Below are positions 36,930-52,578 of a DNA stretch of 62,321 nucleotides, piece after piece; within the stretch, counting starts at the first letter, position 1, and the number at the start of each line of letters is the position of its first letter. A program made the position numbers and the translations under genes. This DNA is from a virus. The stretch spans positions 1 to 62,321 of IMG/VR virus record IMGVR_UViG_3300030202_001124, one strand, 5' to 3'. The notes under the pieces were generated by a model that was not told the DNA's origin, did not search any database, and saw only the letters and a program-made list of their open reading frames with translations.

Positions 36930-37169
36930 TTATCCTTTATATACTTCAGTTTTTATACCATGGTCATTTAATTCTTTCATTCTATATTTCTGTAATGCCG
37001 ACACATGTCCTCTTTTAGTTTTAATTTCAGAAAACAAAGCATTACAATCTTTAGGAAATGCAACAAGATCAGGAATACCATTCTTATTTGTCTTAATTAA
37101 TTTTAAAACATAGTAGCCCTGGGCTTCTAACTCTTTTATTCTTTTGGATTGTACTTGTTGTTCTGTCAT
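36930..37169 (-). CDS. VRR-NUC domain nuclease
   Basis: 79 residues, a complete minimal VRR-NUC (PD-(D/E)XK fold) enzyme: GIPD (residues 31-34), SEIKTKRG with E48-x-K50, and the trailing Gln60 (ALQKYRM). Such stand-alone phage nucleases cut branched or structured DNA and often sit next to SNF2 helicases, as here, where the helicase gene ends on the A of its ATG (TAATG). Probably resolves replication or recombination intermediates. Confidence 0.85.
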   Translation of the reverse strand: MTEQQVQSKRIKELEAQGYYVLKLIKTNKNGIPDLVAFPKDCNALFSEIKTKRGHVSALQKYRMKELNDHGIKTEVYKG

Positions 37170-38401
37170 TACAAACTTAATAAGTCCTTTTTAAAATGCT
37201 TTAATGTATAATCTTTTTTATTTAATACGCTTTTGTAAATTTGTTTTTCAATACCACCTTTGGAAAACACCCAATATATTTTATTATACTTTCTGTCTTT
37301 GGTTGTCATTCTATCTCGTGACTGCCAATAGCTAGTAGCACTAAAATCTATGTTATAATATACAAGAGCTTCAGCCTTTCTTAAACTAATACCTTCTCGT
37401 CCAGAAACAATTTGCAAAGCTATAGATTTATCTGTAGAGTTAAACTCTTCTAAATCAAAACAAATAGTATCCTGGAATACTTGTTTTATAGCGTTAAGCT
37501 CTTCTTTAAACTTATAAAATATACCTATTTTTTTATTTTGAAACCTGTTTTTTATAAATTCAGCCTTGTCAGTACATAACACCATAGACTTACCACTCTC
37601 AAACTTCACAGTTCCAGAAAACATTTGATGAGTTTTACTCATTAACTTTACAGCTGTATCGGCAAGTATTACCTCCTCCTTGCCTTGTACTACTAAACTT
37701 TTCTTTAACTCACTTATAATCCCTAATACTTTTTTACACATATCTACATACAATATCTCTTCATCAGTCTGCACCTCGAACCCAGCTTCTTTTTGCGTGT
37801 AAGATATAGTAAAAGGTTTCATTTCATCTATAATAGAATTATAGCCCCCACTATAATCATTAATAGTCATAGAACCTATTTTTTTCTGCGTCACATTAAC
37901 ATACTCATGAGCAAACTTATAGAAACTCTTGTGTCGTTTAAACGGGTTGTTGTTGATTGAATAAACCTGATGATACATTTGAGAATAAGATTCAGGTGTA
38001 GGTGTTCCTGACAATAAAATTATATATGGGTTGTCATTGATCTGTATTAAAGATTTAACATCTTTAGCTCTTTTGCTTGGCTTAGGAAAAGCTCCCATGC
38101 CGTGAGCTTCATCACATATTATTACATCATAAGGAGAATAAGCTATTTTATGAAGAGACTCGTAATTGATAATAGTAATGTCAAAATCAGGATTGAGTAA
38201 ATTGTAATCATCTTGTATACTAGATATGGCTTTTTTTTTTGTTATAAACAATACGCTAGAAACGGCAAGAGAATTACTTATACTCAAACTCGTAAGTGTC
38301 TTGCCAGTTCTAACTTCCATGGCAAGATATAAAAATTTATGCTTCTTTAATACATCAATTCCTGTTTTCGCAATATTTTTTTGATAATCTCTAAGTTGCA
38401 T
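37169..38401 (-). CDS. SNF2-type DEAH helicase
   Basis: 410 residues, a compact SF2 helicase. Motif I MEVRTGKT (about 28-35), motif II CDEAH (about 97), motif III SGTP (about 132), and C-terminal motifs including SGREGISL and QSRDRMT (motif VI, about 365). The short length and lack of accessory domains are typical of phage SNF2-like translocases paired with a VRR-NUC protein. Likely remodels forks or recombination intermediates. Contains one copy of the CGTTTAAACG palindrome (37935-37944) as PFKRH codons. Confidence 0.85.
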   Translation of the reverse strand: MQLRDYQKNIAKTGIDVLKKHKFLYLAMEVRTGKTLTSLSISNSLAVSSVLFITKKKAISSIQDDYNLLNPDFDITIINYESLHKIAYSPYDVIICDEAHGMGAFPKPSKRAKDVKSLIQINDNPYIILLSGTPTPESYSQMYHQVYSINNNPFKRHKSFYKFAHEYVNVTQKKIGSMTINDYSGGYNSIIDEMKPFTISYTQKEAGFEVQTDEEILYVDMCKKVLGIISELKKSLVVQGKEEVILADTAVKLMSKTHQMFSGTVKFESGKSMVLCTDKAEFIKNRFQNKKIGIFYKFKEELNAIKQVFQDTICFDLEEFNSTDKSIALQIVSGREGISLRKAEALVYYNIDFSATSYWQSRDRMTTKDRKYNKIYWVFSKGGIEKQIYKSVLNKKDYTLKHFKKDLLSL

Positions 38402-42651: not shown

Positions 42652-43060
42652 TTTGTTTCGATTTTAGTTTATTTAATTTTCTTTTGTTGATTGTGTATTT
42701 GTTCAATATTCTCTCTCGGCTATTTTTTAAGTTCTGTATGTGCTTGTCATTCTTCCGAGTATTGACTTCTGTTTTTATATTATTCTCTATGATATCTAAT
42801 TTATGTAAGCAGTTGTTAATTGCTACTAGAAGAACCCCTTTTTCCCAACCATGGTCGTAGAAATAATCATATTCCTCTAAGGTGCATTCTCTTCCATAAT
42901 CGCCACCCTTAGCTACATTAAATATTTCTATTCTATCTTTAAATTTTTCTATCTTGACTCCTTTACATAAAATTGTTTGACTCTTGGCTTTGTTTAAACA
43001 CACTGCCTTTGGGTCTTCTAACGCTTGTCTATATATATATTCTAAATCCCAATTAATCAT
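42635..43060 (-). CDS. Hypothetical basic C-terminal protein
   Basis: 141 residues. N-terminal half is mixed (CKGVKIEKFKDRIEIFNVAKGG); from residue 85 on it is a highly basic coiled coil (KNDKHIQNLKNSRERILNKY...LNKLKSKQNGKLF). It overlaps both neighbours, between the DnaA-like and annealing-protein genes, so a DNA-binding or replication role is possible. No recognised family. Confidence 0.55.
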   Translation of the reverse strand: MINWDLEYIYRQALEDPKAVCLNKAKSQTILCKGVKIEKFKDRIEIFNVAKGGDYGRECTLEEYDYFYDHGWEKGVLLVAINNCLHKLDIIENNIKTEVNTRKNDKHIQNLKNSRERILNKYTINKRKLNKLKSKQNGKLF

Positions 43061-43349
43061 TGGCTTGAATATCTTTTATAAGTTTATTATAATCAGGATC
43101 AGAATCAATAAGTTTTTTTGCCTGTCTGTATCCATGAATAATAGTGGAATGAGAAACATCGTAATTATAGTCTTGCATAAAACATCTTATATAGCTTATT
43201 CTAATAGGTCTTTCCATGCAAAGAAAATACAACATTTGTCTAGCATCTACTACGTCTCTTTTTTTTGATTTGGTAAACATTTCTTCTAGTGTAAGATGAA
43301 ATTGTTTTGCGATTGCATTTGAATATTTAATAAATATTTCTTTTTTCAT
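43053..43349 (-). CDS. DnaA domain IV-like DNA-binding protein
   Basis: 98 residues matching the DnaA C-terminal helix-turn-helix (Bac_DnaA_C): KKRDVVDARQMLYFL, a degenerate helix, then SHSTIIHGYRQAKKLID, the signature recognition helix with the conserved HSTI. The ATPase domain of DnaA is absent. It could bind phage or host DnaA boxes to control initiation. Its leader carries a conserved hairpin element at 43365-43402. Confidence 0.8.
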   Translation of the reverse strand: MKKEIFIKYSNAIAKQFHLTLEEMFTKSKKRDVVDARQMLYFLCMERPIRISYIRCFMQDYNYDVSHSTIIHGYRQAKKLIDSDPDYNKLIKDIQAND

Positions 43350-44445: not shown

Positions 44446-44745
44446 TTAATCTATTGTTCCTGATGTATTACCTCTTTTTAAATAATACTCTTTTTCTTTT
44501 ACTCTTTCCCTTTGCAATGCTTTTGCATGATTATAAATCTGAGCCTCAAAAAACCCTCTAACTTCCTCCATTATTTCTGTGCCATAATTTTTAAAAGTAT
44601 CGTGAAGAATTTTATCATAGTCATCAAAATCTAAATAATTAATATCTAAATTTTTAGCTATGGACTCTATATCTTCTGTTGACCATATCATTTCACTACC
44701 CCTATAATCTGAATATTGGTAAGTGGTTTTTATTTCTTTACTCAT
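44446..44745 (-). CDS. Hypothetical protein
   Basis: 99 residues from ATG 44745 (MSKEIKTTYQYSDYRG); the in-frame ATG at 44754 is an alternative, and longer readings would lie inside the neighbour. The sequence is acidic and Tyr-rich in the first half and basic near the end (LQRERVKEKEYYLKRG). Overlaps the upstream gene by 8 bases. Confidence 0.5.
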   Translation of the reverse strand: MSKEIKTTYQYSDYRGSEMIWSTEDIESIAKNLDINYLDFDDYDKILHDTFKNYGTEIMEEVRGFFEAQIYNHAKALQRERVKEKEYYLKRGNTSGTID

Positions 44746-44980
44746 GGTTTTCATGTTTATTATCGTATGCGTATCGCCAAACTTCATCGTGAAATTCATC
44801 ACACAGAAAGTCAATATAAAAAGTGGTTATATCCATGGCGTTTAAACGCACTTCTTTAATTTCTATATCATCTTCAAAAGGATGTTCGTGTGTTTGCTCT
44901 TTCCAATAATACTTATAATCTATCTCAAGATCATAACTTCCCATGTTTTCTTTTATTGTATAAGTTCCTTTTACATTCAT
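44738..44980 (-). CDS. Hypothetical beta-rich protein
   Basis: 80 residues: TYTIKENMGSYDLEIDYKYYW, an acidic His-rich middle (HEHPFEDDIEIKEVRLNAMD) and an acidic end. The VRLNA codons contain a perfect GCGTTTAAACGC palindrome (44838-44849). Start is an ATGA overlap with the gene upstream. Confidence 0.5.
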   Translation of the reverse strand: MNVKGTYTIKENMGSYDLEIDYKYYWKEQTHEHPFEDDIEIKEVRLNAMDITTFYIDFLCDEFHDEVWRYAYDNKHENHE

Positions 44981-45240
44981 GATAAATTGAATTTAGCTTT
45001 AAACTTTTTTTCTTCCTCTAATCTTTGATATGGTGTTATTCCCAGAAATTCATCAATTAGAATTTCAAGCTGATATTCTGTTAAATGATGATACTCATCA
45101 TTTCTTTCTGAATTTTCAATAAACGTACCGCCTCCGTCCCCGTCATTCCAAATTTCAATTCCCTTTACGTTTGTTTTACATTCATACCCTACTCCTCTTC
45201 GAGTATTAAATTCTCTGTAACTTGTTACTTTTAATTTCAT
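44977..45240 (-). CDS. Hypothetical protein
   Basis: 87 residues, mixed: a basic N-terminal strand (KLKVTSYREFNTRRGVGYEC), a Gly/Asp loop (WNDGDGGGTF) and a helical end. Coupled on both sides (ATGA downstream, TAATG upstream). No recognised family. Confidence 0.5.
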   Translation of the reverse strand: MKLKVTSYREFNTRRGVGYECKTNVKGIEIWNDGDGGGTFIENSERNDEYHHLTEYQLEILIDEFLGITPYQRLEEEKKFKAKFNLS

Positions 45241-45443
45241 TATTTAAATGTTTGTTTGATTAGACATAATATCATCCATGAAGTAGTTCCTAAAAGAGAC
45301 AAAATAAATGCCCATAGAACGCCCATAGCGACTCCCTGTAAGAGTGTTTCAATAGTAGGGGTAATATAGATTAATAAATCTATTATAACGTATCCTATAA
45401 AGAACATAACCATAGTTAATAAAATAATTAATAGTTTTTTCAT
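45240..45443 (-). CDS. Small two-TM membrane protein
   Basis: 67 residues with two hydrophobic helices (about 4-28 and 36-62) separated by a short loop with PTIETLL; the ends are basic (MKKLL..., IKQTFK), giving an N-in/C-in hairpin. Encoded in the early cluster, so not the late holin. A superinfection-exclusion or membrane-takeover role is possible, inferred only. Confidence 0.55.
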   Translation of the reverse strand: MKKLLIILLTMVMFFIGYVIIDLLIYITPTIETLLQGVAMGVLWAFILSLLGTTSWMILCLIKQTFK

Positions 45444-45445
45444 AG

Positions 45446-45718
45446 TTATTTATTTTTTAATTCTGTTTCTTTTTCAAATTGTGCGTGTTGTTTCCAATAG
45501 GAAAAAAACATTTCAATTTCTTCAATATCTTTTTTAAAGTTTTCATTTTGTCCACTTGCATAGATATTCTCTACTATTTCGTTAACATGATGTTCTACTT
45601 TTTTTAAGTCATCAATTAAAAATTCTTGTAATCTTGGACTGATTAACTTTCTATTTTCTTTTAATAGTTTGGCTTTATCTTTTTCTAGCTGAGCAATTTT
45701 TATTTCTGATTTATTCAT
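45446..45718 (-). CDS. Small coiled-coil protein
   Basis: 90 residues, helical and charged throughout (KIAQLEKDKAKLLKENRKL). It is the first gene after the tRNA and its terminator. No recognised family. Confidence 0.5.
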   Translation of the reverse strand: MNKSEIKIAQLEKDKAKLLKENRKLISPRLQEFLIDDLKKVEHHVNEIVENIYASGQNENFKKDIEEIEMFFSYWKQHAQFEKETELKNK

Positions 45719-45736
45719 AATTAATAATTTACTTTT

Positions 45737-45776
45737 AAAAAAAATGCCGAGGGGTTTGGAGTATCGCCACCCCTCG
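45737..45776 (-). terminator. Leftward terminator after the tRNA
   Basis: Leftward stem CGAGGGG/CCCCTCG (45770-45776 with 45748-45754) with additional TGG/CCA pairing in the loop, then GCA and eight T. It lies about 50 bases past the tRNA 3' end. Confidence 0.75.
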
Positions 45777-45826
45777 TTAGAAATTAGTACCCTTTTTTCA
45801 ATACTCGCCTATTTCTACATTTATTG

Positions 45827-45899
45827 TTGCGGGTAAAGGATTCGAACCTATGACCTTGAGTTTATGAGACTCACGAGCTGACCACTGCTCTAACCCGCA
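45827..45899 (-). tRNA. tRNA(CAU), initiator-like (fMet)
   Basis: 73 nt without encoded CCA. Acceptor TGCGGGT/ACCCGCA, D arm GAGC...GCTC, anticodon arm TGAGT-CTCATAA-ACTCA (anticodon CAU), variable AGGTC, T arm with loop TTCGAAT, discriminator A. The A11-U24 orientation (GAGC/GCTC) is a hallmark of bacterial initiator tRNAs. Against this, the three G-C pairs of the initiator anticodon stem are missing and positions 1-72 are a U-A pair rather than a mismatch. An elongator Met or a lysidine-modified Ile (AUA) tRNA are the alternatives. Confidence 0.85.
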
Positions 45900-45907
45900 T
45901 TTATTTT

Positions 45908-46258
45908 TTACCATGCGTCCATATGAACAACATCGCCTGTCATTGCTTTCTTTTTCATTTCCGCCTCTAACAACATATACTCGTCAAACATTTTAGTAAA
46001 ACTTTCTTGCAAGGTTTTTTTACTTCCCTTGATTCCAAAGTATTCTTTTACTTGTGATACTTTCCACCCTCTATGAGGTTTTACATTTAACTTAGTCCAA
46101 AGGGAGACATCTCTTTTTGAAACTATTAAATTGTACTTCGCCAAATTCATTTTCTTTCCACCATTGATACAATTTTCCATGTAGTGCAGAAAATCAGCCC
46201 AAAATTTAGTGTGGCGTTTAAACACCATCGGATAATCATTTAAATTAATTTTAGTCAT
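45908..46258 (-). CDS. Hypothetical early protein
   Basis: 116 residues: an aromatic N-terminal half (RHTKFWADFLHYMENC), a basic middle (SKRDVSLWTKLNVKPHRGW) and a Met/Lys/Glu helix at the C-terminus. The tRNA follows 9 bases after its stop, so both may share a transcript. Contains a GTTTAAAC palindrome (46216-46223) as VFKRH codons. Function unknown. Confidence 0.52.
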   Translation of the reverse strand: MTKINLNDYPMVFKRHTKFWADFLHYMENCINGGKKMNLAKYNLIVSKRDVSLWTKLNVKPHRGWKVSQVKEYFGIKGSKKTLQESFTKMFDEYMLLEAEMKKKAMTGDVVHMDAW

Positions 46259-46494
46259 TTTATTTATTTTAAATTACAGGTGTTTTAATTTGTCTTTGAG
46301 TAAGTGCCACCATTTTACACTTTTTTACTATTTATTTGATAGTTCAATTGTAATGTTTAAACTCGGGAACTCTGACCTTTTACGCGTTGTCCTTTAAGAT
46401 TAATAACTTTTATTTCTAAGTGTTTTAATCTTTTGCTGTCAATTACTTTGCTAATATATAACTAAATATTTATTAATTCCTAATTAATTTATAA
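46259..46494. other. Noncoding gap in the early block
   Basis: 236 bases with no credible gene on either strand. It is very AT rich, with one GTTTAAAC core at 46355-46362 and TA-rich runs near 46455-46490. I see no exact leftward TAnnTTTG box and no clear terminator. Confidence 0.5.
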
Positions 46495-46806
46495 TTATTT
46501 TCTTTTACCTCTGTTATTTTTTTTCTTCGTTACGTTTAAACGCTCTTTAATTTGTGCTTTGTCGTACTCGTTCGCTGACTTCCACAAACTTTTTCCGATT
46601 CTTTCTAAAAATGTTTCTAATCTTTCAACCTCTGTTTCTTCCATTACATTGTGGTTAGTTAATAAAGATGTAATTTCCTCAATGTTTGTTTTTTTATCTT
46701 TTTGAAGAAAAAAAGTCTCTAAAATTTCGCCGACTCGATCCCTTAATATTGCGGATTCAATTTTAATGTGATTTAATTTTGATAATTCAATATGTTTACT
46801 GCTCAT
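46495..46806 (-). CDS. Hypothetical helical protein
   Basis: 103 residues from ATG 46806 (MSSKHIELSKLN); a longer reading to 46869 would lie inside the neighbouring gene. Helical, with a Glu-rich middle (MEETEVERLETFLERIG) and a strongly basic C-terminus (RLNVTKKKNNRGKRK), where RLN codons are a CGTTTAAACG palindrome (46533-46542). Unknown function; basic tail suggests nucleic-acid contact. Confidence 0.5.
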   Translation of the reverse strand: MSSKHIELSKLNHIKIESAILRDRVGEILETFFLQKDKKTNIEEITSLLTNHNVMEETEVERLETFLERIGKSLWKSANEYDKAQIKERLNVTKKKNNRGKRK

Positions 46807-46823
46807 GATTTTATTTAATTTAA

Positions 46824-47051
46824 TTAATAATAATTTATAATTTCTTCGGGTGTCTCGTGGTTTTCCCAAATTACATTCTTTATACTTCGCACTTCAAATG
46901 TTGTTTCTTTTGTCGTGTAATTGTAATGCGGGTAAACGTCAATAAATTTGCCCTTGAAGAATTTTAATAATTCGCTTTTAGTATAGACCGCGTTTAAACG
47001 TTGTCTTTTTGCTTTCTTTACATTGTGGAAAAACTGCGCTTTGTTGCTCAT
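46824..47051 (-). CDS. Hypothetical protein
   Basis: 75 residues, basic N-terminal half (FFHNVKKAKRQRLNAVYTK) and aromatic C-terminal strand region (VYPHYNYTTKETTFEV). RLN codons again coincide with CGTTTAAACG (46991-47000). Unknown. Confidence 0.5.
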   Translation of the reverse strand: MSNKAQFFHNVKKAKRQRLNAVYTKSELLKFFKGKFIDVYPHYNYTTKETTFEVRSIKNVIWENHETPEEIINYY

Positions 47052-47068
47052 AATTTATTTATTTTAAT

Positions 47069-47713
47069 TTAACTTATTTTTAATTGTTCTTTTTTCATGC
47101 TTGCCCCGTGTCCCATGTACGCAATTATTTTGTTTTCTTTGCTCCAACAGGCGCGACACTTCAAACACTTTCCGCCATTCTCGTACGCCTTACAGATTTT
47201 GAAACTAGGATTTAATTTTGTTTTGTCGCTTATTATTGTGCTTTGATACTCCGCCCCGTCTATGGTTTCCCCGTTCACACCGTCGGAACTATAACGGACA
47301 ACGACGTTAGGGAGCGCGTTTAAACGCTCTAATATTGGGCGGAACCTTGAAAGTTTGTACATTCTTGTCGGGATCCAATGGAAAACCCAAGGCGTTGCGG
47401 TGCAAACTTCGAGGATTTTTTCAGCTAATTTAATACTGTAAATGTCGCCTGAATCAAACCACCTAAAAAAGCGGTCATTTAAATTCAATTCCTCAGTCAT
47501 ATCTTTTACCCAATCGTCACGCCTCCAATCTTTGCGATTTTCTTCGCGTACGCTTTTGACGTTCTTAAATCTATAATTTCCGCCGACCGCGTAGCAACCT
47601 TTACAGGCGGGAACAAGTTCCCCGTTTTTATCACGGGAGGCGGGGCAAGTGTCCAACGCTTGAAGACTCCAAGATCGACATGGCATTTTCCCCGCTTTGC
47701 TAAATCTTATCAT
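47069..47713 (-). CDS. GP88-like Cys-rich protein
   Basis: 214 residues. It resembles the phage gene product 88 family: SLQALDTCPAS near the N-terminus, CKGCYA, WFDSGDIYS and IPTRMYKL in the middle, and a C-terminal Cys cluster (KICKAY...GGKCLKCRACW), together a probable metal or Fe-S site. Function unknown. Base composition is clearly richer in GC than the phage average (about 48% in a counted 60-base stretch at 47101-47160), suggesting recent acquisition. Preceded by leader hairpin copy B; contains GCGTTTAAACGC at 47316-47327. Confidence 0.65.
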   Translation of the reverse strand: MIRFSKAGKMPCRSWSLQALDTCPASRDKNGELVPACKGCYAVGGNYRFKNVKSVREENRKDWRRDDWVKDMTEELNLNDRFFRWFDSGDIYSIKLAEKILEVCTATPWVFHWIPTRMYKLSRFRPILERLNALPNVVVRYSSDGVNGETIDGAEYQSTIISDKTKLNPSFKICKAYENGGKCLKCRACWSKENKIIAYMGHGASMKKEQLKIS

Positions 47714-47733
47714 AATTTAATTTAATTAAAGTT

Positions 47734-47767
47734 ACTACCACCAAAACCCCGCAACGAATGAACGAGG
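47734..47767 (-). promoter_or_regulatory. Conserved leader hairpin (copy B)
   Basis: Leftward: stem CCTCG/CGGGG around a TTCATTCGTTG loop, then TTTTGGTGGTAGTAAC and TTTAATTAAATTAAATT before the GP88-like ATG (47713). The downstream part is almost identical to copy A although the stem sequence differs. Confidence 0.58.
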
Positions 47768-47791
47768 CGAGGCGATGAGGTTTAAAAATTT

Positions 47792-48004
47792 TTAGTCGAA
47801 TAATTCTTCTAGTTTACATTTTAAAAGGTTGTTTTTGTCCAACTGGCGCAATGCTTCAAAAATTACATTCATTGAGAGTTTTTGTTCGGATGATGTTAAA
47901 TTAACATTATCTAATTTATCTAAATATTGACCGATTGAATTCATCGCTAATACTTCCGCGTTTGAGAACATTTTAATTGTTTTAACTTCTTTTTGTGTGT
48001 TCAT
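47792..48004 (-). CDS. Hypothetical small protein
   Basis: 70 residues from ATG 48004 (MNTQKEVKTIKMF). The longer reading to 48046 is rejected because the ATG at 48004 sits in a leader (AAACCC TTAAAAATATG) almost identical to that of the 48963 gene. Helical and Leu/Asn rich, ending CKLEELFD. Leader hairpin C lies upstream. Unknown. Confidence 0.55.
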   Translation of the reverse strand: MNTQKEVKTIKMFSNAEVLAMNSIGQYLDKLDNVNLTSSEQKLSMNVIFEALRQLDKNNLLKCKLEELFD

Positions 48005-48037
48005 ATTTTTAAGGGTTTTAATTAAAAACTTAATTGT

Positions 48038-48074
48038 TTTTACCACGAAAACCCCGCGCTATTGCTAGGCGGGG
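48038..48074 (-). promoter_or_regulatory. Conserved leader hairpin (copy C)
   Basis: Leftward: strong stem CCCCGC/GCGGGG (48052-48057 with 48069-48074), an inner CTA/TAG helix, then TTTTCGTGGTAAAAAC. Same downstream box as copies A and B. It lies between the SprT gene and the 48004 gene and could also terminate the SprT transcript. Confidence 0.62.
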
Positions 48075-48095
48075 CGTCGGGGCGTTTAAACGCGG

Positions 48096-48707
48096 TTAAG
48101 CCTCCGCCATATATCCCGCCTCATTTTGACAAGCTGGGCAAGTAAAATTTGTAATCAAATCAAAGTTTTTGCGCGATGTTCTGAAACTGAACCCGCACCC
48201 GTTTCCGTAATCGTCGGTGCATTCAATTTTTATATTTCGACTAGTTTGCTTTTTGCGTGCGCTGAGTAATATTTCCGCGTGTGGATATTTGCCTAATTTC
48301 TGAGCTATTTTTTCAAGCTCTACAATTAAACCGGGGCTCTCTGTGGTCATGGTCATTCTACCTTCTAAACCAATGGCGTGCGCCATGTCTCGAAATACTT
48401 TTCCGTGACCGTTTTTACAGTCGTCTATCGCGTGGATTAATTCATGAGCCAAAACGCCGAGCGTTTTTATAGTGTCATCATTTTGCGGGCTCATAAAAAT
48501 CTCATTCACATTAGCCGAAGAATGACTGCGCGGATGACATACGCCGAGTGTTAAAAATCTTGATGCCTTAGTTTTACGCGTTCCAAGTGCGAACCCGCAA
48601 GATATTTTAACGTCCTTTGGGATAGTCAAATTTGCGGTTTTAAATACTCCTTTTTGAAGTAAATTTTTAGCTTCGTTAAGCCAATTTTCACGAGTTAATT
48701 TTTTCAT
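48096..48707 (-). CDS. SprT-like zinc metalloprotease
   Basis: 203 residues. HELIH at 88-92 with the third ligand His101 (GHGKVF) is the SprT/Spartan active site. A C-terminal zinc ribbon (about 160-197, IECTDDYGNGCGF...FTCPACQNE) completes the family layout. Spartan proteins degrade DNA-protein crosslinks; as the second gene of the early operon it may process host proteins on DNA. GC content is higher than in neighbours to the left. Confidence 0.82.
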   Translation of the reverse strand: MKKLTRENWLNEAKNLLQKGVFKTANLTIPKDVKISCGFALGTRKTKASRFLTLGVCHPRSHSSANVNEIFMSPQNDDTIKTLGVLAHELIHAIDDCKNGHGKVFRDMAHAIGLEGRMTMTTESPGLIVELEKIAQKLGKYPHAEILLSARKKQTSRNIKIECTDDYGNGCGFSFRTSRKNFDLITNFTCPACQNEAGYMAEA

Positions 48708-48714
48708 AATTTTA

Positions 48715-48963
48715 TTATTTTAATAAGTTAGTATCAACAAAAGACGCATTTTCTAAATCTTCCGTAATAGTGTTAAAGATTCTCATAGATGTACCCATTA
48801 AGCGCCCATCCCAATAAGATGGCGCATAAATTAAATATTCAGTTTCATTTAATTTTTTTACTTTAAAATCTGATAATCTTTGATTAAAAAATTTTAATGT
48901 ATTTGCGCTGAAATAATGAGGCGCATTTTTTTTCGTTCTTTGTTTTATTTCTTGTATAGTCAT
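48715..48963 (-). CDS. First gene of the early leftward operon
   Basis: 82 residues, basic, no recognised domain (TKKNAPHYFSANTLKFFNQRL; LIYAPSYWDGRLMGTSMRIF). It is the first gene after the leftward -7 box (48996-49003), so it should be among the earliest products, typical of small host-takeover proteins. Its leader AAAACCCCTTAAAAATATG is duplicated before the 48004 gene. Confidence 0.58.
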   Translation of the reverse strand: MTIQEIKQRTKKNAPHYFSANTLKFFNQRLSDFKVKKLNETEYLIYAPSYWDGRLMGTSMRIFNTITEDLENASFVDTNLLK

Positions 48964-48995
48964 ATTTTTAAGGGGTTTTAATTAAACAATTTAAG

Positions 48996-49003
48996 CAAAT
49001 ATA
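48996..49003 (-). promoter_or_regulatory. Leftward early -7 box (TATATTTG)
   Basis: CAAATATA on the plus strand reads TATATTTG leftward, 32 bases before the ATG at 48963. Probable main promoter of the early operon. Confidence 0.6.
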
Positions 49004-49472
49004 ACGAATAAATGTTTATAAACTAATTAAATTATAATTAAATCATGTTTAAACACTACCCAACAGAAAAAAAATAATTTTTTTTATACTTCATTCAATG
49101 CGTTTAAACGCTTTTAATATCTGTGCGTCAATTGTTTATATCTGTTGTATTTGGGGAGGTTTTGTTTTCGTTTATTTGAGCGCGTTAGGGGTTTACTCTT
49201 TAACCGCGTACGCGTGAACAGGGGTAAAAGGGGGGAAGGTTAACAGATTGAGACGTTAAGGCGTAATATGTAGGGGTGTACAGGTACAATATAACGCGCG
49301 CGTGTGCGTGTGGTGTGCTACCCCTTAGACCAAAAGCTAAAAAATCCGAAAAGAAATTTTGATTTCCTCTGTTGACCTCTGTAAAATATCGGTTTCATAT
49401 TGGGGGGTGTGTTGCTCAGAAGTATATATAACCCTCAGGTTCTTTGTATCTGATGCTCAAAAAAATTTTTAC

Positions 49473-50049: not shown

Positions 50050-50082
50050 AAAGCGACGTAAACAATTTGTTTATTTATTTAC

Positions 50083-50090
50083 TATCTTTG
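50083..50090 (+). promoter_or_regulatory. groEL -7 box (TATCTTTG)
   Basis: Exact TAnnTTTG match 24 bases before ATG 50115 and 33 bases after the last AGTTGTCG copy, so proteins on that copy would overlap the promoter. Confidence 0.65.
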
Positions 50091-50114
50091 TTTAAAATTA
50101 AATTAAATCTTAAC

Positions 50115-51716
50115 ATGAACAAAGCTGGATACATACCTAAAGACTTAACATTTGATAGTGAGGGTCGTTCTAAACTCATTAATGGCATAACATCTATTTC
50201 TAAAGCAGTAAAGAGCACCTTAGGCCCTAGAGGCCGTACGGTACTAATAGAATCTCCTGAACACCTGGCAGGAATTACAGTGACTAAAGACGGTGTAACC
50301 GTAGCCAACTCCATTTTCTTAGACGATCCTATTGAGAATCTTGCGATTCAGATGATGAAGGATGCAGCTAGTCGAACCGCCCAGCAAGCTGGTGATGGTA
50401 CTACTACAGCCATTGTACTGACTGAAGCTATAGTCAATGCAGGTGAGAAACATTTAACTGCGGAACATAATATAACCGAGGTAATTAAATTTATAAATGA
50501 ATATAAAAATAAATTAATAGGTGAGTTAGAGAAAAGTTCTAAGAAAATAACGAAGTCTAGATTGTTAGACGTAGCTACCATTTCAGCTAACAACGACAAA
50601 GAGATTGGGTCAATCATTGCCGATGCCTACAAAAAGGTTGGAACGGACGGTATAGTAACGGTTGAGAAGAGTATGAACCACGAGACATATGCCGAGGTAA
50701 CAAATGGAATAAAAATAGACAGGGGATATACATCTAATTTATTTTTAAACAACCAACGTAAGGATGAGTGTATCATGGAGGATGTAATGGTTCTAGTTTG
50801 TGACCAGGAAATTAATAACATATTACAAATTGAGAATGTAATAAAACCAATCATACAAAAAAATAAAAAATTATTAATCATTGCACCATGTGCAACTAAT
50901 GTTGTAAATACCTTAGCCGCTAATGTGGTTAGAAATGGATTGCAACTTTGTAATGTCTCGCCACCAAACTTTGGATACAAACAACACGAGCTGATGCAGG
51001 ACATCGCTTTTGCGGTTGGAGCGAAATATTATTCTGAAAAGACAGGAGATGATTTGAGTCTGCTAAATCTTGATGACCTAGGGCATGTAGATAAAATAAT
51101 AGTGGGCAAGGATAATAGCGTGCTAATAAAAGATGCGCCCATCACACAACAGACTACTGATCGAATAGCGGAGCTTAGAGAACAACAACAAGCTACGGCA
51201 TTTCAGGCTGACCGAGATTTTATAAATCAAAGGATAGCAAGTTTAGCAGGAGCGATAGGGTGTATATACGTTGGGGCTAATAGCGATGTGGAACAAAAAG
51301 AAAAATTTGACCGAGTCGATGACTCGGTGTGCGCCGTGCGCAGTGCCTTACAAGAAGGCATAATAACGGGAGGAGGACTGGCACTGTTCAATTGTGTTGA
51401 CCAAGTGTTTAGTGAGACGGATAATCAAAACAAAGACGTAGCGTATGAGATATTGCGAGATGCCGTTAGAGTACCGCTACAACAAATTATAATTAATGCA
51501 GGTAAAGAACCAAATGATATAATAGTTCTTTTAAACAGAAATAACGAATTTAATCACGGTTATGATGTTAAGAACGAAAAGATGGGAGACATGTTCAAGA
51601 TGGGCGTGATAGATCCCCTTAAGGTTACGAAGAATGCGCTTATAAACGCAGTGTCTGTAGCAACAACCATATTATCAACTAATGCGATTGTAACACATGC
51701 AAGAGCAAAAAATTAA
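50115..51716 (+). CDS. groEL: Chaperonin GroEL (phage-encoded)
   Basis: 533 residues from ATG 50115; a longer in-frame reading starts inside the promoter. All key GroEL segments are present: LGPRGRTV, VTKDGVTVANSI, AGDGTTTA (ATP site), TISANND, DRGYTSNLF (apical domain), DRVDDSV with the hydrolytic Asp and EGIITGGGLAL. The flexible GGM-type C-terminal tail of bacterial GroEL is absent; it ends THARAKN. Folds phage proteins, probably capsid or other virion proteins, with the downstream GroES. Promoter and iterated octamers precede it. Confidence 0.95.
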   Translation: MNKAGYIPKDLTFDSEGRSKLINGITSISKAVKSTLGPRGRTVLIESPEHLAGITVTKDGVTVANSIFLDDPIENLAIQMMKDAASRTAQQAGDGTTTAIVLTEAIVNAGEKHLTAEHNITEVIKFINEYKNKLIGELEKSSKKITKSRLLDVATISANNDKEIGSIIADAYKKVGTDGIVTVEKSMNHETYAEVTNGIKIDRGYTSNLFLNNQRKDECIMEDVMVLVCDQEINNILQIENVIKPIIQKNKKLLIIAPCATNVVNTLAANVVRNGLQLCNVSPPNFGYKQHELMQDIAFAVGAKYYSEKTGDDLSLLNLDDLGHVDKIIVGKDNSVLIKDAPITQQTTDRIAELREQQQATAFQADRDFINQRIASLAGAIGCIYVGANSDVEQKEKFDRVDDSVCAVRSALQEGIITGGGLALFNCVDQVFSETDNQNKDVAYEILRDAVRVPLQQIIINAGKEPNDIIVLLNRNNEFNHGYDVKNEKMGDMFKMGVIDPLKVTKNALINAVSVATTILSTNAIVTHARAKN

Positions 51717-51726
51717 AATTAAAATT

Positions 51727-51876
51727 ATGGCACACACACCAAATGCTTTTGAAAATGAAATTTTTGAACATTTCAGAACAAAAGAAAAAAGATTGAAGGA
51801 AGCAAAAAAACTTTTGAAAAACAATGGCCACATAGTCATTGAAGCAAAAAACAAGATAGAAGGACAATACACATGA
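51727..51876 (+). CDS. Small basic protein between groEL and groES
   Basis: 49 residues, helical and Lys/Glu-rich (FENEIFEHFRTKEKRLKEAKKL). It starts 11 bases after groEL and overlaps groES by an ATGA, so the three are one operon. It resembles no chaperonin part. It could modulate the complex or be an unrelated passenger. Confidence 0.6.
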   Translation: MAHTPNAFENEIFEHFRTKEKRLKEAKKLLKNNGHIVIEAKNKIEGQYT

Positions 51877-52130
51877 AGCCAATAGGTAAGTATATTATCA
51901 TCAACAAGATTGATGAAGAAATAAAAACAAATTCAGGGTTATTATTATCAGCAGCCGATGTGCAAGAGTTTCGTTACATAAAAGGCCAAGTTGTAAAACC
52001 AGGCAGTGAGGTAAGCGTAATAAAAGAAAACGATTTAATTTATTACGACAGCGGCTCAGGTCACAGCATGCTTATAAACGATGAACCCTACACAATTATT
52101 CTTGAGAGAGATGTCGTTGTTGTTTTATAA
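51873..52130 (+). CDS. groES: Co-chaperonin GroES (phage-encoded)
   Basis: 85 residues, slightly shorter than host GroES (about 95). Starts KPIGKYIIINKIDEE, then a mobile-loop segment TNSGLLLSAAD with LLL where GroES has IVL, the turn KGQVVKPGSE, NDLIYYDSGSG in the barrel, and the terminal ERDVVVVL strand. It would cap the phage GroEL. The last 35 bases overlap the convergent winged-helix gene. Confidence 0.85.
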   Translation: MKPIGKYIIINKIDEEIKTNSGLLLSAADVQEFRYIKGQVVKPGSEVSVIKENDLIYYDSGSGHSMLINDEPYTIILERDVVVVL

Positions 52131-52578
52131 AGTTGTTTATTTCGACAATCATGTTACGGTAAACCTTATCCATGTAAGAAGCATCATTGCGGAATAAAGG
52201 GTTGGAGTGCGCTGTTTCAGCAATTTCTTCACCGTTTAATTTTTTATAAACTAATGTTATTATGCGTTTCGCCTTATAAGTTAGTTCATAGAGTGTAGTC
52301 TCTTTGCCCTTTCTCTTCCTCCAAACATGTATCCAATCATCTCTTAGTAATCTTTTAAATCTTTTAACATCCCAGCTCATTACCTCCTCGTATTTTAAAA
52401 ATTCTGTTTTGTTAAATATATCTTCGCTGTATAAAAACAATAGCATTTCTAAGTCAGGAGTAGTTAATCCATACTTAGCTTTTACCCAATACCTAATAAC
52501 TCTCCAATATTTTAAATAATCATGGCTAGGCTTACGTCTTGTGGTAGGTTTTCTTTTGGTTACGCCTTTAACTTTCAT
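52096..52578 (-). CDS. Winged-helix-like (MarR-type) DNA-binding protein
   Basis: 160 residues, the only leftward gene in the rightward arm. A basic N-terminus (KVKGVTKRKPTTRRK) precedes a helical domain with LTTPDLEMLLFLYSED, YEEVMSWDVKRFKRLLRDDW and a wing-like GKETTLYELTYKAKRI, the layout of a MarR-type winged helix. It is divergent from the small basic-protein operon (43-base gap), so it may control late or chaperonin expression. Its 3' end overlaps groES by 35 bases. Confidence 0.62.
   Translation of the reverse strand: MKVKGVTKRKPTTRRKPSHDYLKYWRVIRYWVKAKYGLTTPDLEMLLFLYSEDIFNKTEFLKYEEVMSWDVKRFKRLLRDDWIHVWRKRKGKETTLYELTYKAKRIITLVYKKLNGEEIAETAHSNPLFRNDASYMDKVYRNMIVEINNFIKQQRHLSQE

Follow-up and report, generated by a model that had tools for sequence, protein, structure and literature searches.

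A dispersed palindrome that accompanies a SprT-like metallopeptidase gene in phages of several phyla, and the SprT-like protein as its candidate reader

The window, an uncultured virus record of 62 kb analysed over its whole length (IMGVR_UViG_3300030202_001124; 62,321 nt), carries a leftward early block and a rightward GroEL side with a control region between them. Dispersed through the early block and its control region is a ten-base palindrome, CGTTTAAACG, with the eight-base core GTTTAAAC, and one copy adjoins the gene for a SprT-like metallopeptidase (Table 1). A first-pass annotation of this DNA had suggested that the palindrome may be an operator for a phage regulator, and had named a DnaA-like and a winged-helix protein as possible binders. 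Our analysis supports the operator proposal and points to a different protein, the SprT-like metallopeptidase, as the regulator.

Table 1. Palindrome copies and genes of the window referred to in the text
Feature	Position	Strand	Context or basis
CGTTTAAACG, core 48084-48091, part of GCGTTTAAACGC	48083..48092		Immediately 3′ of the sprT-like stop codon
CGTTTAAACG, extending to GCGTTTAAACGC	49101..49110		Control region upstream of leftward early block
TGTTTAAACA, second control-region site	49046..49055		55 bp from 49101
CGTTTAAACG, extending to GCGTTTAAACGC	47317..47326		Within GP88-like gene, RLN codons
CGTTTAAACG	46991..47000		Within open reading frame 46824-47051, RLN codons
CGTTTAAACG	46533..46542		Within open reading frame 46495-46869, RLN codons
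CGTTTAAACA, copy with one mismatch	46215..46224		Within open reading frame 45908-46258, FKR codons
CGTTTAAACG, extending to GCGTTTAAACGC	44839..44848		Within open reading frame 44738-44980, RLN codons
CGTTTAAACG	37935..37944		Within helicase gene 37169-38401
SprT-like metallopeptidase gene (203 residues), proposed palindrome reader	48096..48707	-	Pfam, PHROG, conserved residues, AF2
Control region, leftward early block / rightward GroEL side	48964..49443	-	Two sites
Solo DnaA domain IV protein	43053..43349	-	Bac_DnaA_C 1.1e-8
Winged-helix-type protein	52096..52578	-	Weak SarA/Rot-like and PHROG matches
Small membrane protein	45240..45443
GroEL-like gene	50067..51716
GroES-like gene	51873..52130

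All seven copies of CGTTTAAACG lie where the first-pass annotation had placed them, five within genes and two between genes, and four of them extend to GCGTTTAAACGC, as it had also stated. Its estimate that far fewer than one copy would be expected held as well: dinucleotide shuffles gave an expectation of 0.03, and 0 of 100 shuffles reached seven copies. CGTTTAAACG is the top enriched dyad of the window, and a Markov-model count, which the annotation had proposed as a check, found the core enriched (15 copies against 3.5 expected, order-3 model). With synonymous-codon shuffling, the top enriched 8-bp palindrome was GTTTAAAC (9 versus 1.84). When the 27 leftward early genes were shuffled in this way, which preserves protein and codon usage, the ten-mer was present five times against a mean of 0.07 and a maximum of two in 2000 shuffles, and the eight-mer eight times against 0.89 and a maximum of four. 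We conclude that early coding sequence is constrained to retain the site, as had been suspected from the codons in which it is read.

By its sequence, the product of the gene at 48096 is a member of the SprT-like family: it matches Pfam SprT-like (PF10263) with an E value of 4.6e-6 (26.9 bits, curated cut-off 25.6) and phrog_6361 at 1e-29, and 39 of 40 aligned family members match the Pfam model at E 0.01. The protein has an HExxH motif (H88, E89, H92), followed by G100 and H101, a KKQTSR motif (K152-R157) and the four cysteines of a C-terminal zinc ribbon (C163, C171, C190, C193). The residues H88, E89, H92, G100 and H101 are invariant in both family alignments (A1 and A2), H101 probably being the third zinc ligand, and proteolytic activity is predicted. 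In an AlphaFold2 (AF2) model with a pLDDT of 90, the HExxH helix spans residues 79-94 and a beta zinc ribbon residues 158-202, with residue 157 at the ribbon edge.

Which gene goes with the motif was examined in relatives of the window, namely 80 loci retrieved with its primase-helicase (phrog_28855). Counted over whole records, CGTTTAAACG occurs 21 times in G021 and in G029, 11 times in G035, nine in G030, seven in G002 and in G023, six in G022, five in G028 and four in G027; two of the remaining relatives have one copy and the rest none. The core reaches 46 copies in G021 and 42 in G029, where successive copies lie 40-400 bp apart in the first part of the early operon and become sparser farther away. 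Of 17 complete genomes with the shared replication module, four (the window, G002, G021 and G029) have both the motif and sprT, and 13 have neither (Fisher P = 4e-4). When whole records were compared, the SprT-like gene was the only one of the early block present in 4/4 complete carriers and 0/13 non-carriers; the small membrane protein gene, also found in all four carriers, is present in G004, which has one site, too. The DnaA-domain-IV and helicase genes are found in all 13 complete non-carriers; one of these lacks the annealing-protein gene, and most have the winged-helix gene. Since relatives without the motif encode them, we rejected the DnaA-domain-IV and winged-helix proteins as readers. 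In 40 relatives lacking sprT, GTTTAAAC is present 23 times against 33.7 expected, and a search of non-carrier relatives for alternative palindromes found none comparable. No cultured phage matched the window's early region in a search for DNA similarity.

The annotation had named absence of the palindrome from equivalent positions in related phages as a refutation, and this comparison proved informative. The motif is missing exactly where sprT is missing and carriers do keep it, but at other positions: the helicase-gene site of the window has a counterpart in G002 (L006), where GTTTAAAC lies at the identical offset, 458, whereas the positions of the window/G002 group differ from those of the G021 group. 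Individual sites have therefore been gained and lost while the class persisted.

Some features of this group stand apart from the palindrome. G035 (IMGVR_UViG_3300030101_004148, 105 kb) seems to comprise two related phage genomes, with sites in the first 40 kb only and a second primase at ~66 kb. In primase-family loci without sprT and the GTTTAAAC motif, GGTATACC is over-represented (32 versus 6.7). The solo DnaA domain IV protein, 98 residues long and without an ATPase domain, is conserved throughout the group. The GroEL-like and GroES-like genes are adjacent in the window, and a GroEL gene is found in relatives with and without the motif.

The association extends well beyond this group. All four contigs found with the window's SprT protein have the site, and most of the 80 SprT loci from an alignment-based search are enriched in it, even at 50-66% GC. 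Across 68 non-redundant viral SprT loci, GTTTAAAC occurs 334 times against 22.9 expected (z 64; next palindrome z 7.6), and across 67 SprT loci in bacterial genomes 87 times against 8.6 (z 26; next palindrome 3.3). Carriers have hosts in Bacteroidota, Proteobacteria, Planctomycetota and other groups. Among isolates, Burkholderia phage Mica (62% GC) has seven sites against 0.12 expected, Persinger four against 0.08 and Enterobacter phage Arya (L200) seven against 0.79; 8/8 further proteobacterial isolates, including the E. coli phages Bas97 and ep3, have 2-17 sites, compared with 0-1 in controls. Bas97, whose SprT-like protein is Bas97_0032, has six. A scan in the opposite direction, starting from viral records of at least 24 kb with two close CGTTTAAACG copies, returned six records with at least five sites, all encoding a SprT-like protein, once the tandem-repeat record G075 was set aside. 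Six records with two or three sites (G054, G059, G066, G072, G073 and G092) had no full SprT, and their close pairs were judged to be due to chance or other causes.

In G075 (L302, L314), which has no SprT gene, a 29-bp tandem array with CGTTTAAACG in its unit lies at the record ends. Arya has another strong dyad, ACAAnnnTTGT (13 versus 0.4), which may serve its CI-like repressor as an operator. In short Sphingobium, Novosphingobium and Sphingomonas contigs (L373-L417, 63% GC), a sprT relative has a conserved GTTTAAAC at gene position +308, and nearly every TTTAAA of these contigs falls within the motif.

The spelling of the site changes with a single residue of the protein. Four SprT loci without GTTTAAAC carry CTTTAAAG instead (5-7 copies versus ~0.2 expected), and the CTTTAAAG loci form two separate long branches of the SprT tree. 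Residue 157 is Arg in 58/58 GTTTAAAC loci and Tyr, Ala or Ser in 8/8 CTTTAAAG loci, although proteins of one clade are not independent; no other alignment column separates the classes so cleanly. Within the otherwise invariant KKQxTR motif, Arg157 has been lost independently in the two CTTTAAAG branches, replaced by Tyr in one and by Ala or Ser in the other. In the later-fetched loci L424, L425, L426 and L428, respectively 4/4, 9/9, 2/2 and 3/3 TTTAAA are CTTTAAAG and none GTTTAAAC; L421, a relative that keeps Arg157, has GTTTAAAC. Where KKQxTR is lost, as in Bordetella phage CN1 and Pseudomonas phage Epa5, there is no site, and in bacterial genomes the site is present at 40/45 SprT loci with KxQxTR versus 6/35 without it (P = 7e-11). 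A site at sprT +40-70, found in 12/43 loci, stays put near codons 18-20 in both classes with the spelling of its class (+53 in L270, +59 in L242).

Aligned sites of related contigs revealed a dyad longer than ten bases, of 18-20 bp, RnnnYGTTTAAACRnnnY, with a purine at −5, a pyrimidine at −1, a purine at +8 and a pyrimidine at +12 relative to the core; some intergenic sites in close relatives are palindromes of 20-24 bp. An 18-bp dyad with symmetric flanks is the pattern expected of a dimeric DNA-binding protein. With respect to sprT, the site lies 18-27 bp before the ATG in 7/8 of the later proteobacterial isolates, and about 16-26 bp before the start in Mica, Arya and Persinger. In the former it usually follows a −10-like hexamer such as TATAAT by ~6-9 bp (judged by eye; a simple promoter scan did not flag these hexamers). 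A site falls within −20 to +60 of the sprT stop codon in 26/43 independent loci, and likewise in the window. Overall, the density of sites in intergenic DNA is five times that within genes (1.85 versus 0.37 per kb), and it is highest in and just after sprT. The window's control region, besides its two sites, appears to hold a Bacteroidota-type −7 element, TATATTTG (~49003-48996), and may thus contain a promoter.

Because the word tracks sprT through unrelated phages of several phyla, and because its spelling changes with one residue of the SprT-like protein, the reader of the palindrome is very probably the SprT-like protein itself. Its C-terminal part would read GTTTAAAC as a symmetric dimer on the extended dyad, with Arg157 of KKQxTR contacting the outer G. 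The placement of sites upstream of sprT, at its stop codon and in intergenic DNA suggests autoregulation together with control of the early operon. A dimer bound just downstream of the −10-like hexamer would block initiation at sprT, and since most lineages have a site near the sprT start or stop, we consider autoregulation likely. In the window and its relatives, where further sites spread across the early operon, densest around sprT and sparser with distance, SprT-like protein, as it accumulates, would shut off the early region or coat it, much as happens at stoperators. Whether the dispersed sites act mainly on transcription is, in our judgement, evenly balanced. As a whole, we favour a model in which the SprT-like protein binds GTTTAAAC and regulates its own gene and the early region through dispersed sites, and regard it as the probable explanation.

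Several points weigh against this model. No SprT protein is known to us to recognize a specific sequence; when the AF2 model was compared with the Protein Data Bank (PDB) by Foldseek, no match was significant, and fold and PDB profile searches gave no DNA-binding precedent. The CTTTAAAG class represents two evolutionary events plus later-fetched members of one clade, and the motif classes had been fixed before residue classes were compared, the outcome then being confirmed on the later-fetched loci. Actinophage SprT proteins (L241, L239, L251 and others) keep KKQTTR, have lost the first CxxC of the ribbon, and occur in genomes above 65% GC that lack GTTTAAAC; Streptomyces phage Crosby has KKQxTR and an intact ribbon yet no site; and L243 has no site despite a protein closely resembling the one in L229. 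Finally, many sites deep within late genes are unexplained by simple promoter control. A search for a word of the actinophages' own gave only codon-like signals and weak matches (CGTTnAACG, TTCGCGAA, TTGCGCAA), and ATTTAAAT in L243 was judged insignificant, the closely similar L229 protein going with GTTTAAAC.

The late-gene sites also bear on the strongest alternative, in which the SprT-like protein does bind the sites, chiefly to anchor or switch on its peptidase on phage DNA; host or defence proteins sitting on the phage genome would then be cleaved, with the phage marked as self and the host chromosome spared. Many of these sites are promoter-less, and they recur in distant relatives (in terL and neck genes of Mica, Arya, KA2-1 and MQ-4), so that a further role, for example in anchoring the peptidase, may exist. 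Invariance of the catalytic HExxH...GH residues fits this alternative, proteins of the SprT fold act on other proteins that are bound to DNA (SPRTN, PMC5127644), and ArdC has an antirestriction role (PMC7213743). Nevertheless, sites are densest at sprT and between genes, and they also lie at the sprT promoter, as would suit regulation. Bas97 is reported to be very sensitive to restriction systems (PMC11990801), so that a general antirestriction effect is not operating in that phage, and mutation of the ArdC protease centre left its effect on conjugation undiminished. We regard a chiefly peptidase-anchoring function as possible and distinctly less probable than regulation. More speculative still is the idea that sequence-guided proteases of this kind are widespread in mobile elements, each element writing its word many times into its own genome (GTTTAAAC, or CTTTAAAG if Arg157 is lost) as an evolvable code of self and non-self, which would confine the peptidase to proteins on the element's own DNA.

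Another host or phage protein might read GTTTAAAC, with SprT only cleaving or regulating that reader. ImmA/IrrE-type metalloproteases work in this manner on a separate repressor, and a few SprT loci lack the motif. However, 61 carrier neighbourhoods share sprT, the next gene family reaches 22, and a search of these neighbourhoods for a common partner gene beside sprT found none. The hosts range over Bacteroidota, Proteobacteria, Planctomycetota and other groups, and the motif changes with SprT residue 157 in two lineages; this alternative is improbable. Still less credible is a replication or recombination site, a further suggestion of the first-pass annotation, read for instance by the DnaA-domain-IV protein: the sites do cluster in the early and replication block of a phage encoding such a protein, but every non-carrier has that protein and the replication module too, the word does not resemble a DnaA box, and the same sites are also seen in phages whose replication genes differ. 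Its remaining suggestion, a restriction or modification mark, draws on the identity of GTTTAAAC with the PmeI/MssI site and is highly implausible, since restriction targets are avoided and this site is enriched, some carriers use CTTTAAAG, and carriers share no methyltransferase, sprT being their sole common gene. A compositional or codon artefact, conceivable in an AT-rich genome where TTTAAA is frequent, can be dismissed given the synonymous-codon shuffles, the Markov models and the 62-63% GC phages in which 7/8 or 4/5 TTTAAA fall within the motif.

The nearest known systems of dispersed operators are the stoperators of L5-type mycobacteriophages and the repressor sites of SPbeta. Like them, the palindrome is a short word repeated genome-wide, in and between genes and denser in early DNA, with one phage protein as its proposed reader. 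Unlike stoperators, which are asymmetric and oriented with transcription, it is a perfect palindrome with symmetric flanks, it occurs in phages of several phyla, and its proposed reader is a SprT-like metallopeptidase, not a helix-turn-helix repressor. The system thus shares with the stoperator class its many copies, and differs from it in symmetry and in lacking an immunity repressor as reader; the window gave no match to an HTH_3 repressor or a tyrosine integrase (the search did not extend to serine integrases). The LexA and CI-type repressors likewise combine DNA binding with a peptidase domain and control their own genes, but they are serine autoproteases with a helix-turn-helix, unrelated in sequence to SprT-like proteins. 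With the SprT-like/Spartan (SPRTN) family, PF10263, the protein shares the HExxH core, a zinc-binding C-terminal part and an association with DNA. To our knowledge, characterized SprT and SPRTN members bind DNA by its structure and not its sequence, whereas the branch described here has a KKQxTR motif and a zinc ribbon that go with one specific palindrome. ArdC is also a mobile-element protein with metalloprotease and DNA-binding domains, but it prefers single-stranded DNA through an N-terminal ArdcN domain, and dispersed sites have not been described for it (PMC7213743); ArdcN (PF08401) had no match in the window or among 40 family members. The SAS/ESAS repeats of cluster K mycobacteriophages are dispersed and conserved, and some of these phages encode a SprT relative (PMC3203893). 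SAS repeats differ in being non-palindromic and lying 3-7 bp before start codons, and no link to SprT was made (PMC3203893). Our literature search found no paper linking phage SprT proteins to a DNA site and none relevant to the occurrence of GTTTAAAC in phages or to the role of SprT there; the Bas97 paper mentions neither SprT nor the palindrome (PMC11990801). SprT-like proteins are annotated in well over 100 cultured phages and many more viral contigs, and their function in phages is not known. If our model is correct, this would be, as far as is known, the first SprT-family protein to read a specific sequence, and the family would gain a target on DNA, a candidate residue for recognizing it and an operator for autoregulation, all testable in the E. 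coli K-12 phage Bas97. The GTTTAAAC and CTTTAAAG classes would then form a natural series of specificity switches through which to follow how a protein that recognizes DNA and its numerous dispersed sites change together.

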